64,000 nt of DNA from Lachnospiraceae bacterium C1.1 (lineage in GTDB: Bacteria > Bacillota > Clostridia > Lachnospirales > Lachnospiraceae): contig JAUISW010000001.1 of the NCBI GenBank assembly GCA_030434875.1, positions 2,863,501 to 2,927,500 on the forward strand, read 5' to 3'. A program made the position numbers and the translations under genes. How positions within the stretch are numbered: position 1 is the first letter of the stretch; each line of letters starts with the position of its first letter. This document shows, in pieces, positions 2,717 through 59,270 of this stretch. The notes under the pieces are model-generated. The model was not told the DNA's origin. It did no database searches and saw only the letters and a list, made by a program, of their open reading frames with translations.

Positions 2717-2811
2717 GGAGCCAGCAGCTGTCGGAACATGCGTCAGCATGTGACATACAGATGCGGCAACCGACAGGCTATGTCAACATATAAACTTACG
2801 TTTATTAAGGA
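2717..2811 (+). repeat. Shine-Dalgarno-flanked structured element, copy 1 of a tandem pair
   Basis: This is an 88-bp core (2721-2808) preceded by GGAG at 2717 and followed by GGAGGAG. Copy 2 repeats it exactly with a 95-bp period. Pairing visible by eye: CTGTCGG (2728) with CCGACAG (2770); ACATGC-GTCA-GCATGT hairpin (2736-2751); GACATA (2752) with TATGTC (2779), which crosses the first stem and makes a pseudoknot; ATAAAC-TTAC-GTTTAT hairpin (2790-2805) just before the ribosome site. I do not recognise it as a known riboswitch class. Confidence 0.9.
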
Positions 2812-2906
2812 GGAGCCAGCAGCTGTCGGAACATGCGTCAGCATGTGACATACAGATGCGGCAACCGACAGGCTATGTCAACATATAAACTTACGTTTAT
2901 TAAGGA
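2812..2906 (+). repeat. Shine-Dalgarno-flanked structured element, copy 2, supplies the kduD ribosome site
   Basis: The core (2816-2903) is identical to copy 1. Its end runs into AAGGAGGT, the Shine-Dalgarno of kduD, with ATG at 2915. The last hairpin of the element therefore abuts the ribosome site, so folding could control kduD translation. An open frame beginning ATGCGTCAGCAT inside the core ends at TAA 2911-2913, one base before the kduD ATG. That would allow coupled translation if it were ever translated. Confidence 0.9.
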
Positions 2907-2914
2907 GGTATAAA

Positions 2915-3721
2915 ATGTCAGGATTTAATATGGACAGTTTTTCCCTTAACGGAAAAGTTGCTCTCGTAACCGGCGCAAGCCACGGCATTGGAATGGCAAT
3001 TGCCCAGGCACTTTATCAGGCAGGCGCAAAGGTTGCATTTAACTCAAGCTCAGAAGCAGGTCTTGAAAAAGGTCTCGCTGGCTATAAAGAACTCGGCGTA
3101 GAAGTTAAGGGCTATGTTTGTGACGTTTGCGACGAAGCAGCAGTTACAAAAATGGTAGCTGACATCGAGAAAGAGCTCGGTGTAATCGATATCCTCGTAA
3201 ACAACGCAGGTATCATCCGTCGTATCCCTATGACAGAGATGAGCGTAGAGGAATTTAAGAAGGTCGTAGATACAGACCTTAACGCTCCTTTCATCGTTTC
3301 CAAAGCAGTTATCCCCGCAATGATCAAAAAAGGTCACGGCAAGATCATCAACATCTGCTCTCTCATGAGCGAACTCGGCCGTGAAACAGTTTCTGCTTAT
3401 GCAGCTGCAAAGGGCGGTCTCAAGATGCTTACCAGAAATATATGCTCTGAGTTCGGCGAAGCCAATATCCAGTGCAACGGCATCGGTCCCGGTTATATCG
3501 CCACAAGCCAGACTGCTCCTCTTCGTGAGAGACAGGCTGACGGAAGCCGTCATCCTTTTGATTCATTCATCGTTGCAAAGACTCCTGCAGGACGCTGGGG
3601 CGAAGTTGATGACTTAAAAGGACCCGCTGTTTTCCTTGCATCTGATGCATCTGATTTCGTAAACGGACAGATTCTCTATGTAGACGGCGGAATCACAGCT
3701 TATATCGGCAAACAGCCATAA
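2915..3721 (+). CDS. kduD: 2-deoxy-D-gluconate 3-dehydrogenase / gluconate 5-dehydrogenase family, KduD
   Basis: 268-residue short-chain dehydrogenase. The Rossmann motif TGASHGIG is near residue 22, NNAG near residue 92, and the catalytic Ser...YAAAK is near residues 147-164. KduD reduces 2,5-diketo-3-deoxygluconate to 2-keto-3-deoxygluconate with NAD(P)H, the step between KduI and KdgK. The start has AAGGAGGT eight bases upstream, provided by the end of the second structured element. Codon use is strongly biased, as in kdgK2 and kdgA, which suggests high expression. Confidence 0.93.
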   Translation: MSGFNMDSFSLNGKVALVTGASHGIGMAIAQALYQAGAKVAFNSSSEAGLEKGLAGYKELGVEVKGYVCDVCDEAAVTKMVADIEKELGVIDILVNNAGIIRRIPMTEMSVEEFKKVVDTDLNAPFIVSKAVIPAMIKKGHGKIINICSLMSELGRETVSAYAAAKGGLKMLTRNICSEFGEANIQCNGIGPGYIATSQTAPLRERQADGSRHPFDSFIVAKTPAGRWGEVDDLKGPAVFLASDASDFVNGQILYVDGGITAYIGKQP

Positions 3722-26641: not shown

Positions 26642-27931
26642 TCAGGGGAGCAGAAATTCCCTGCATTTTCCGTACTCTGCGGGAGCGAGATAGGCTTCGA
26701 TATAGATACCGTCTTCTCTGTAGTCGGCAGCCTCTATCTGTGCCTTTTCACGAAGCATACTCTCTATGCCTGCTTTATCATAAGGGATCAGTAATTTACA
26801 GAAATTAAGCGATTCGTTGAGTTTTTTCTCTATGAGACTTATCAGTTCTTCTATTCCGATCCCGTTTTTTGCAGATATATACGCCTTATCCCCGATAATT
26901 TTCGGTATGGTGAAATTTTCAGATAATTCGGCTTTATTCATAACCGTTATTCTCGGGATATCTCCGGCTCCGAGCCGGCTCAGTGTTTTGTCCGTGACCT
27001 TTGAATGCATTGCGTGATTCGGGTCCGAAGCATCCACGACTTCTATGATGAGGTCGGCATATACTGCCTCTTCAAGGGTTGAATGAAAAGCATTGACCAG
27101 ATCTGTCGGGAGATCATTTATAAATCCTACTGTGTCTGACAGGAGGAAAGTCCTTCCGCTGCCGGTCTCAAGCTTTCTGACCGTAGTATCAAGCGTCGCA
27201 AAAAGCATGTTTTCGACATATACCCGTCCTGATTCCTCGCTTCCGTAGGTATCGAGAAGCTTATTCATCAGGGTCGATTTACCGGCATTTGTATATCCGA
27301 CGAGTGCCACCAGCGGTACCGCTGCATTGGAGCGCTTGCTTCTCTGCATATTCCGGCTCTTTTCCACTTCCTCGAGCTCGCGCCTTAGATGAGCCATTTC
27401 TTTCTCTATCTTTCTTCTGTCGAGCTCGATCTGTTTTTCACCGGAGCCCTTATTGGATAAAGAACCGCCTGTACCGCCCTGCCTCGAAAGATTGCTCCTT
27501 AAGCCGACGAGCCTCGGGAGCATATATTTGAGCTTTGCATAGTCAACCTGAAGTCTCGCTTCCTTTGTTCTCGCTCTTTCTGCAAAGATATTTAATATGA
27601 GGCCGGTTCTGTCTATAACCTCGACGTCGAGCTTTTTAGAAAGGTTCGTGAGCTGTGTTGGCGTAAGAGAGTTATTAAAGATAGCCGTATCTATATCATA
27701 TTCCTCAATAACTCTTTTTATCTCTTCAACTTTTCCGGATCCTATAAGCGTTGCGGGATCTTCCGATGAAATATTCTGCGACGCATTCATGACAGGATCT
27801 ATATCACAGGCCTTTGTAAGACCTTTTAATTCCTGCATTCCGATTTCAAAATCTTCTTCAGACATGCTGCTGTCCCTGGCTCCCACCAGTACAGCACGTC
27901 TCTTTTTCTCATTTCTAAGCTCGTATAACAT
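26642..27931 (-). CDS. hflX: Ribosome-associated GTPase HflX
   Basis: 429 residues. The N-terminal HflX domain (ATLIGSGKVEEIK; RTGLILNIFAERARTKEARLQVDYAKLKYMLPRLVG) and the glycine-rich linker (SRQGGTGGSLSNKGSGEKQ) are followed by the G domain: G1 GYTNAGKST, G3 SDTVGFINDLP, G4 MNKAEL. It splits stalled or hibernating 70S ribosomes. The ATG overlaps the putP stop as TAATG, so the two genes are translationally coupled. Confidence 0.96.
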   Translation of the reverse strand: MLYELRNEKKRRAVLVGARDSSMSEEDFEIGMQELKGLTKACDIDPVMNASQNISSEDPATLIGSGKVEEIKRVIEEYDIDTAIFNNSLTPTQLTNLSKKLDVEVIDRTGLILNIFAERARTKEARLQVDYAKLKYMLPRLVGLRSNLSRQGGTGGSLSNKGSGEKQIELDRRKIEKEMAHLRRELEEVEKSRNMQRSKRSNAAVPLVALVGYTNAGKSTLMNKLLDTYGSEESGRVYVENMLFATLDTTVRKLETGSGRTFLLSDTVGFINDLPTDLVNAFHSTLEEAVYADLIIEVVDASDPNHAMHSKVTDKTLSRLGAGDIPRITVMNKAELSENFTIPKIIGDKAYISAKNGIGIEELISLIEKKLNESLNFCKLLIPYDKAGIESMLREKAQIEAADYREDGIYIEAYLAPAEYGKCREFLLP

Positions 27932-29502
27932 TACTTGTAACCTCTTGCGGCCTGCAGCTCCTCTTTCGCATGTACTTTATCGAAAGTGTTTAAGATATCT
28001 TCTGAAGGAGCCTCATTAAGAAGGCTGACTATTACGATCGCCATAAGGCTTATGAAAAATCCCGGTACAAGTGAATAAAGCCCTGTAGCGGTATAGATCG
28101 TCTGTCCGCCTATTATTGGTAAATAATCCCATACGATGACCACAGCGGCACCGCTCACAAGACCTGCTATGGCTCCCTGCAGATTAGTTCTTCTCCAGAA
28201 AAGACTCATAAGGACAAGAGGTCCGAATGCTGCTCCAAGTCCTGCCCATGCATCTGAAACCAAAGACATTATGGAAGAATCCGGATTCCAGGCAATGATA
28301 AAAGCGATCACTGCAATAACAACAATGGCGATCCTGCTCAGTCTGAGGACTGACTTATCATCTGCATTCTTGTTTATAACACCCTTGTAGATATCCTCAG
28401 CGATAGCAGATGCGCTTACAAGAAGCTGTGAATCCGCCGTTGACATTATTGCTGCAAGGAAACCACAGAGGAAAATTCCTGCAATGACCGCAAGATGCAT
28501 TTCCTCGGTGAAAACTCTCTTGATCATTTCTATAAAAATATACTCAGAGGTTACGCTTCCGCCTTCATTAAGCTCCTTAAATAAGGAATTATCCATAAAT
28601 GCACGTCCAACGATTCCGATAACTACTGCAAAAGCAAGGGAAAGAGTTACCCAGCTTATAGCGATGACCTTTGACTTATTCATTTCTTTCTCATTTTTAA
28701 CTGCCATGAAACGGACAAGAATATGCGGCATTCCGAAATATCCAAGTCCCCATGCCATTCCGGAGATTATGTGGATCGCATTCGTTCCGGTAAAGAAATC
28801 AGTGAATGATCTTGTATCGGCTATTCCGTTATTTATGAGACCTTCGGTTATCGTCTGTCCGTTACCGTTCATTATTGAAATTGCTACCATCGGAACTGTC
28901 AATAAAGCAACGATCATCAATGATCCCTGGATAAAGTCCGTCGTGCAGACCGCCATAAAGCCTCCGAGGAAGGTATAGAGCAGGATAACTGCTGCACCTA
29001 TAGAAAGCGCCAGATGATAATCAAGATGAAAAACCGAATTAAAAAGCTTTCCGCCCGATGCAAATGCCGATGCCGTATAAACCGTAAAGAAAAGAGCTAT
29101 AATTATAGAAGATATTATCATCAATATTTTTTTCTCATCTTTATAACGATTTTCAAAAAACTTAGGCAGCGTCACTGAATTTCCGGCTTCGATAGTATAT
29201 CTTCTTAAAGGCGAAGCTACCACGATCCAGTTAAGAGCTGTACCTATAAGAAGACCTATCGCTATCCAGCCGTCTCCTGAAAGACCGCTTAAAAATATAG
29301 CTCCCGGAAGTCCCATCAAAAGCCAGCCGCTCATATCCGAGGCCTGTGCCGAAAAGGCTGCAACTAATCCTCCAAGTGAACGTCCTCCAAGAAAATAATC
29401 TTCAGATTTCTGATTTTTTCTGCTGTATACCGCTCCTATCACTATCATTATTCCAAGATAGAAAATAAAAGCAGCTATTTCCCATATTTCTACGCTGTTC
29501 AT
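27931..29502 (-). CDS. putP: Sodium/proline symporter PutP
   Basis: 523 residues with about 13 membrane segments. SSS-family signatures: DYFLGGRSLGGLVAAFSAQASDMSGWLLMGLPG, the PutP-specific N-terminal motif, and the later GYFGMPHILVRFMAV. It imports proline with Na+ for nutrition or osmoprotection. The start follows AAAGGAG. That ribosome site is the end of the third copy of the 88-bp structured element. hflX follows with a one-base overlap. Confidence 0.92.
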   Translation of the reverse strand: MNSVEIWEIAAFIFYLGIMIVIGAVYSRKNQKSEDYFLGGRSLGGLVAAFSAQASDMSGWLLMGLPGAIFLSGLSGDGWIAIGLLIGTALNWIVVASPLRRYTIEAGNSVTLPKFFENRYKDEKKILMIISSIIIALFFTVYTASAFASGGKLFNSVFHLDYHLALSIGAAVILLYTFLGGFMAVCTTDFIQGSLMIVALLTVPMVAISIMNGNGQTITEGLINNGIADTRSFTDFFTGTNAIHIISGMAWGLGYFGMPHILVRFMAVKNEKEMNKSKVIAISWVTLSLAFAVVIGIVGRAFMDNSLFKELNEGGSVTSEYIFIEMIKRVFTEEMHLAVIAGIFLCGFLAAIMSTADSQLLVSASAIAEDIYKGVINKNADDKSVLRLSRIAIVVIAVIAFIIAWNPDSSIMSLVSDAWAGLGAAFGPLVLMSLFWRRTNLQGAIAGLVSGAAVVIVWDYLPIIGGQTIYTATGLYSLVPGFFISLMAIVIVSLLNEAPSEDILNTFDKVHAKEELQAARGYK

Positions 29503-29509
29503 ATTTTTT

Positions 29510-29605
29510 CTCCTTTATAAATGTAAGTTTATATGTTGACATAGCCTGTCGGATGCCGCATCTGTATGTCACATGCTGACGCATGTTCCGACAGCTGCTG
29601 GCTCC
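29510..29605 (-). repeat. Shine-Dalgarno-flanked structured element, copy 3, before putP
   Basis: Core 29514-29601 (minus strand) matches copies 1 and 2 at 85 of 88 positions and is bracketed by GGAG on both sides. The right GGAG is the putP ribosome site. The CTGTCGG/CCGACAG and GACATA/TATGTC pairings and the ACATGC/GCATGT hairpin are unchanged. One difference falls in a loop, one at the loop-closing pair of the last hairpin and one outside the stems. Confidence 0.92.
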
Positions 29606-59096: not shown

Positions 59097-59270
59097 AATG
59101 ACCCTGGGGGACGGAGTTTGGGGTTTGGAATGACCCTGGGGGACGGAGTTATAGGTTCATTTTAAAACAAAATGAACCTATAACTCCGTCCCCCAGGGTC
59201 ATTCCAAACCCCAAACTCCGTCCCCCAGGGTCATTCCGAACCCCAAACTCCGTCCCCCAGGGTCATTTTT
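59097..59270. repeat. Array of AATGACCC...GGGGGACGGAGTT units forming a 67-bp perfect inverted repeat
   Basis: Five related units of about 33 bp: two in one orientation, three in the other. Arms 59097-59163 and 59169-59235 are perfectly complementary over 67 bp around a five-base loop; one extra unit follows (59236-59270). It shares GGGGACG and AATGACCC with the palindrome at 5678. Confidence 0.92.

Follow-up and report, generated by a model that had tools for sequence, protein, structure and literature searches.

A repeated element ahead of kduI-linked and putP genes

The window, that is, the whole 64,000 nt stretch of the Lachnospiraceae bacterium C1.1 genome that was analysed, contains two tandem copies of a short repeat (sequence 2717-2912) between kduI (1849-2691) and a gene for an SDR dehydrogenase (2915-3721). 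The copies are identical across a 95 bp period, as described in an initial annotation of this DNA, and each spans 96 bp from GGAG to GGAG; the element itself comprises 92 bp (equivalently, 88 bp plus GGAG) set between two GGAGs. A third copy, also described previously, was found on the minus strand directly 5' of putP (27931-29502), with 93 of 96 bases identical. At both places the right GGAG stands at Shine-Dalgarno (SD) distance from the next start, in agreement with the earlier statement that each copy is bracketed by GGAG and that the right one is the SD of the following gene. Amongst the gene names first proposed, kduI and putP were confirmed (the latter above the cut-off of TIGR02121), whereas kduD was not. 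The gene at 2915-3721 scored above the cut-off of the NCBIfam gluconate 5-dehydrogenase model and kduD models fell below theirs, hence that name is only approximate. The features of the window copies are as follows.

2717..2720, plus strand: landing GGAG of copy 1, read as the former SD of the next gene; the empty site in a same-species metagenome-assembled genome (MAG) is TTTACTATAGGAGGTATAAAATG
2721..2812, plus strand: copy 1, 92 bp, with its right GGAG at 2809-2812
2720..2767, plus strand: left hairpin of copy 1, GCC-A-GCAGCTGT (2720-2731) with ACAGATGC-GGC (2757-2767)
2736-2741 with 2746-2751, plus strand: apical part of the left hairpin of copy 1, ACATGC/GCATGT
2770-2771 with 2717-2718, plus strand: foot of the left hairpin of copy 1, CC pairing GG in the computed fold
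2790..2805, plus strand: right hairpin of copy 1, ATAAAC-TTAC-GTTTAT, with two-sided pair changes and an arm-swap test
2809..2815, plus strand: tandem junction GGAGGAG, the right GGAG of copy 1 and the left GGAG of copy 2 overlapping by one G
2816..2907, plus strand: copy 2, identical to copy 1, with its right GGAG (2904-2907) 7 nt ahead of the ATG at 2915
29510..29605, minus strand: third copy with both GGAGs, before putP; left GGAG 29602-29605, right GGAG 29510-29513

The GGAGGAG junction gives the tandem its period of 92+3 bp. Simple insertion gives no account of the extra GAG, and the tandem at another locus (L146) differs in that its copies share a single GGAG. No terminal inverted repeats of the kind that classically define MITEs were present, the ends CCAGC and TTAAGGAG not being inverted copies of each other.

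Host copies and sites that are empty in a same-species genome

Querying the host genome (4.23 Mb) with a 98-base element sequence returned 20 matching places. Together with the scores of covariance model R1, which was made from six copies and gave 115, 115 and 112 bits in the window (R1 itself being built from such copies), this places the window repeats far beyond chance. Nine host copies are identical over the element, one is 99 % and two are 97 % identical, and the others are diverged, partial or split; at 92 bp, the near-identical dispersed copies carry no coding region. Two of the matches (L014 and L016) are parts of one copy separated by a 46 bp insert. The same hairpin-forming insert was seen at about the same position in L014/L016 (867683-867825) and L017 (3887096-3887240), which are host copies of different age. 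The 98-base query had no match in 60 relatives at E≤0.001, and a scan of the host's two small contigs for a right-end pattern gave a single match that looks like chance. Carriage by phage was considered and set aside, as viral contigs had no match to two exact patterns, which degenerate relatives would escape.

The genes identified downstream of copies are unrelated. They encode the SDR dehydrogenase, putP, ribBA, an ECF S component, ahcY, tagaturonate reductase, pxpB and coaBC, with HPr, clpS, purF, pheT and mraY, as well as dnaK after L019, assigned by eye from further translations.

An exact pattern for the core was present in at least one record of the genome collection, the MAG Lachnospiraceae bacterium RUI497. 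Its flanks place this copy at the same locus as host copy L004, the site being filled in both genomes. The genome that carries it (G065) was classed as 'same species' as the host in the genus search and contains a single full copy, together with a weak match to the element over 33 bases; R1 identified two further diverged copies there (E 0.0004 and 0.03), both with counterparts in the host (L133/L137 and L134/L138).

We joined 17 pairs of host flanks and searched for them in this MAG, which is 86 % complete. Five pairs were continuous, with a single GGAG, an intact SD and no element: those of the window site, L005, L006, L011 and L009, the last with small flank differences. For L003 and L019 the right flank alone matched, and nine pairs had no usable orthologue. 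The flanks of L010 (host 2689235-2689330) matched the MAG in two pieces (C162:7361-8584), where a frame, stop-free within the stretch examined, opens with ATG behind an SD GGAG and passes an internal GGAG 984 bases on. The element in the host joins these two GGAGs, indicating that insertion either came with, or preceded, a GGAG-to-GGAG deletion. The clean empty sites thus all come from one genome pair, and they are of the form that the initial annotation had named as support for insertion, namely sites with a single GGAG.

An alternative is that the 'empty' sites are precise GGAG-to-GGAG deletions in the MAG and that the copies are old. Four-base repeats do flank every copy, and the L010 site shows rearrangement between GGAGs approximately 1 kb apart. 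Such an account, however, needs five independent precise losses, which is unlikely given nine identical host copies, and at L010 the stretch of approximately 1 kb is missing from the host rather than from the MAG. We therefore read the difference between filled and empty sites as insertion and regard deletion as extremely improbable. Taken with identical copies before unrelated genes, the empty sites support the mobility that had been favoured at the outset. Of the two GGAGs, one may equally have arisen by duplication of the target or have been brought in by the element.

Distribution in the genus and the order

In a search of 48 genus genomes, R1 found matches in 16 at E≤0.01; relaxing the threshold to E≤1 brought the number to 28, although some of these matches (L120, L121) read as chance. 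Amongst the matches listed at E≤1, G022 had at least 36, G012 at least 33 and G021 at least 24. Sixty stretches with matches were read individually; the copies read in G021 and G022 were mosaics, with one identical pair. A right-end pattern (GTCAGATA, hairpin, AGGAG) was found at 72 places in 18 of the 48 genomes, compared to none for the reversed control. A second model, R2, was made from 49 members and applied with strict filters to 295 genomes of the order, five of which matched at E≤0.01: the host, two genomes of genus g26, one of g41 and one of another taxonomic family, this last match reading as chance. Both g26 and g41 belong to the taxonomic family of the host. Four real-looking loci were found outside the genus with R2, all before a start codon; one of these sites is occupied in both g26 genomes, which shows that a copy can be old. 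According to the covariance models, the element forms a family that extends through the genus, and two further genera of the host's taxonomic family have a few loci. The covariance-model search proposed initially has yielded many copies, placed mostly just before start codons.

Related forms were also observed. A sister subfamily has the left hairpin GGAGCCTTTTTTGT..ACAAAAACGG, GCCTTTTTTGT..ACAAAAACGG or a GC-rich variant, a similar right end and GGAG boundaries; it was seen in L115, L143, L178, L245 and L250 and upstream of the element in L003, where one copy stands in tandem before it. Short forms with the right hairpin and SD but without the left hairpin were seen in L235, L236, L239 (G020), L244 (G035) and L246 (G031), some of them placed immediately after the stop codon of the preceding gene. 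They may be remnants or a smaller mobile unit.

Placement at Shine-Dalgarno sequences

Amongst 58 full-length placements, 46 were followed, 3-16 nt from the right GGAG, by the start of an ORF, for which a length of 40 codons or more was required unless the frame stayed open up to the stretch's end. Four of the other 12 continue into a further copy and two lie too close to the edge of their stretch; the remaining six showed neither a start nor a second copy, three of them being host L008, L010 and L011. Members were chosen by a pattern starting GAGC and ending AGGAG, which fixes the right GGAG in advance but leaves the first left base and the start codon free. At the left end, the four bases read GGAG in 45 of 48 copies, AGAG in two and TGAG in one. 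When ATG alone was counted, 43 of 52 placements had a start. The corresponding figures for control GGAGs, every one being counted whether in a gene or not, were 67 of 407 for the window and 71 of 424 for 14 loci of other genomes.

Most window GGAGs (332 of 402) lie in genes, and 33 of the other 70 are already SDs under a simple gene model; part of the SD preference may therefore be survival. A reading without SD targeting, in which insertion occurs at any GGAG and the copies at SDs are the survivors, draws on this background and on the recent host sites, which exceed it weakly (9 of 11 at SDs, L010 being counted by its empty site, vs 33 of 70; p 0.03). It sits poorly with the pooled placements (46 of 52 vs 33 of 70; p 1e-6), though gene criteria and genomes differ between these counts. 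On balance we give this reading close to an even chance. Insertion at GGAG with the SD rebuilt, as first suggested, is itself supported by the single-GGAG empty sites and the 46 of 58 placements at SD distance. We conclude, with a probability of roughly 80 %, that this is a non-autonomous mobile element of approximately 92 bp that inserts at GGAG, mostly in SD sequences.

Two hairpins supported by the alignment

The hairpins were tested on an alignment of 49 members, with relatedness left in all covariation statistics. The left hairpin begins at the last G of the landing GGAG and has the arms GC-N-TGATACCGT..ACGGTATCA-GC in other species, corresponding to GCC-A-GCAGCTGT..ACAGATGC-GGC in the window. 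Across its ten pairs, 93.0 % of cells were paired vs 83.7 % when shuffled and at most 49.4 % when slid (kinship ignored), and six of the ten tested pairs had changed on both sides. Swapping arms between 37 distinct left hairpins raised the mean energy from -20.5 to -13.6 kcal/mol, with none of 150 permutations as low. The same test on 40 distinct right hairpins gave a change from -1.81 to -0.86 kcal/mol, again with 0 of 150 as low; this hairpin, ATAAAC/GTTTAT in the initial annotation, which had placed it next to the ribosome site, also has pairs with changes on both sides and lies just before the new SD.

The remainder of the fold first proposed, a pseudoknot in which CTGTCGG/CCGACAG crosses GACATA/TATGTC around an ACATGC-GTCA-GCATGT hairpin, fared differently. 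All of these letters, like those of the last hairpin, are present as written, but the pairing of GCC-A-GCAGCTGT with ACAGATGC-GGC had been missed, and it competes with CTGTCGG/CCGACAG for the same strand. CTGTCGG/CCGACAG was fully paired in 17 of 49 members, with 5.88 of 7 pairs vs 5.16 after arm swaps (kinship ignored) and 81.4 % of cells paired vs 78.6 % shuffled and 61.4 % for the best slide; it may be a second state of the left strand. The crossing stem GACATA/TATGTC was complete in only three of 49 members (4.12 of 6 pairs vs 3.93 swapped), its inner pairs being kept more often than the whole. With its stems complete in so few members, the crossed pseudoknot was rejected as the conserved core fold. 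Covariation was found for the left and right hairpins. The alignment instead points to a conserved structure consisting of the left hairpin, its foot paired to the landing GGAG, and the right hairpin before the new SD.

Conserved structure in leaders directly before an SD, two mutually exclusive pairings of one strand and one site common to two species of another genus would also be expected of a cis-regulatory RNA, either a riboswitch or a protein-binding leader, that is kept for its function and is not mobile. Searches with Rfam 15 returned no gathering-score match in the window except a tRNA elsewhere in it, and no family reached its gathering cut-off at 18 related loci. Neither was there a consistent association with downstream genes from one pathway, as a riboswitch would have. 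A riboswitch or known RNA family was therefore rejected, and with it the 'riboswitch-like motif' offered initially. The unrelated downstream genes, the occurrence of tandem copies and the lack of an Rfam match also count against a cis-regulatory RNA more generally, and the same-species empty sites refute it as the whole story, though not a later role at single genes. We consider it very improbable. At L178:1-77 (G070), sub-threshold Rfam matches to Clostridiales-1 (26 of 48 bits) and Transposase-2 (22.3 of 42.7 bits) were noted; these lie at and before a sister-subfamily copy.

A predicted exchange of one Shine-Dalgarno sequence for another

In six members whose folds were inspected, the GG of the landing GGAG pairs with a CC after the left hairpin and closes its foot, and these CC columns are at least 90 % conserved in the 49-member alignment. 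Over 48 copies, the GGAG of the joined flanks had a mean unpaired probability of 0.51 and the right GGAG one of 0.49, compared to 0.21 for the left GGAG. The left and right GGAGs differed (p 2e-7), whilst the right GGAG and the joined flanks did not (p 0.87). From these fold probabilities the old SD is predicted to be hidden and the new SD to be as good as the old.

A mobile element with these properties might work as follows. It would land in the GGAG of a gene's SD, where the landing GGAG would be folded into the foot of the left hairpin by GG-CC pairing and so be hidden; the GGAG at the right end, predicted to be as open as the one it replaces, would then serve as the gene's new SD. On this model, the gene behind an inserted element probably goes on being translated. 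An enzyme acting in trans may recognize the ends in folded, single-stranded form, and the GG-CC pairing could also help to choose the target, by analogy to the guide sequences of IS200/IS605. SDs would be safe harbours for an element that restores the one it has entered, and with a replacement SD at its own end it can precede unrelated genes, probably without switching them off. The full form of this proposal, an SD-homing family in which the target GGAG is read by the conserved CC, the captured SD is folded away, a new SD is supplied and the mover falls outside Y1/RAYT, is speculative, and we would not expect it to hold in every part.

Known systems and candidate movers

According to the excerpted text of PMC6006769, IS200/IS605 elements carry a hairpin near each end; the left end is flanked by a target tetranucleotide and the right end closes with a tetranucleotide of its own. 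The element described here resembles this plan in its two subterminal hairpins on one strand and may also share the fixed tetranucleotide at its left flank and right end, although a GGAG duplication is equally likely. It differs in that it targets GGAG in SDs and carries a replacement SD at the right end, and in that its guide-like CC lies on the other side, 3', of the left hairpin, known guides being 5' of the hairpin foot in the same excerpt (PMC6006769). A further difference is that no Y1 gene with its ends was found at host Y1 loci.

REPs are described, in excerpts of PMC6006769, PMC2817692 and PMC3733652, as species-specific hairpins in high copy number, each with a tetranucleotide left unpaired at its 5' foot, that are moved by an enzyme acting in trans; high-copy hairpins and a tetranucleotide at the 5' foot are common to the present element. 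REPs are, however, 20-40 bp palindromes mostly downstream of genes in the excerpt of PMC3733652, whereas this element measures 92 bp, has a second hairpin and lies upstream at the SD. Its foot tetranucleotide is GGAG and not of the GTAG/GTGG type, and no RAYT was found in those copy-rich species that were tested. The excerpt of PMC3733652 also mentions another REP superfamily without a dedicated transposase.

These likenesses raise the possibility that the mover is a Y1 HUH transposase and the element a miniature IS200/IS605 or REP/RAYT derivative, a question that concerns the enzyme and not mobility itself. The host does have 17 Y1 matches, one of them a RAYT-like protein (L100), and the end plan is the same. 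BLAST of the element against the 17 host Y1 loci nevertheless revealed no shared ends (best E 0.93), and a loose regular expression matched once, in L087, without the right-end motif. Host Y1 elements were accordingly rejected as parents. PF01797 (Y1) was not detected in copy-rich G021, G022 and G071; G012 had a sub-cut-off match, G070 one short match just above the cut-off and G020 two above it. Homologues of the L100-type RAYT were present in 14 of the 48 genus genomes but in none of G021, G022, G012, G070 and G071, and their absence from the copy-rich G021, G022 and G012 leaves the L100 protein unsupported as mover. Against this, multi-copy genes can drop out of MAGs, and an enzyme may disappear before its old copies do; as the copies read in G021 and G022 are mosaic with one identical pair, either loss of the enzyme or a gap in the MAGs may be the reason. 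With the position of the guide-like CC also unlike that of known guides, we view a Y1 mover as possible yet unlikely.

No autonomous relative with the same ends was found amongst the host Y1 loci or the tail-only loci read. The tail matches read in 20 stretches were short, composite or decayed elements, and no gene was seen inside one within 170 bases upstream of each tail. Separately, a cluster of inverted GGGGACGGAG / CTCCGTCCCC repeats was observed at 59098-59268 of the window. Similar repeats flank the RAYT-like gene in L100, so they may be the REPs of that protein.

Other small repeats also invite comparison. The MIRU of mycobacteria are likewise small gene-junction repeats that would keep the next gene translated, but to our knowledge they lie at stop/start junctions rather than at SDs and lack hairpins of this type. 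BOX, RUP and comparable repeats are likewise small and dispersed, and are likely transcribed as structured RNA; they differ, as far as we know, in having other targets and no replacement SD. In open-licence PMC literature, covered by titles and abstract openings and so weak evidence of absence, no SD-targeting repeats were described.

Significance

Most often, small repeats in bacteria stay harmless by occupying spacers. This element appears to use a ribosome-binding sequence as its landing site and then to replace it, and SD replacement would be a different answer to the survival of mobile elements in a dense genome. It raises the sharp question of which enzyme recognizes GGAG and two hairpins. 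For the organisms that carry it, the element puts a standard structured leader before many unrelated genes and would supply a compact translation start that can be carried from gene to gene and readily tested.
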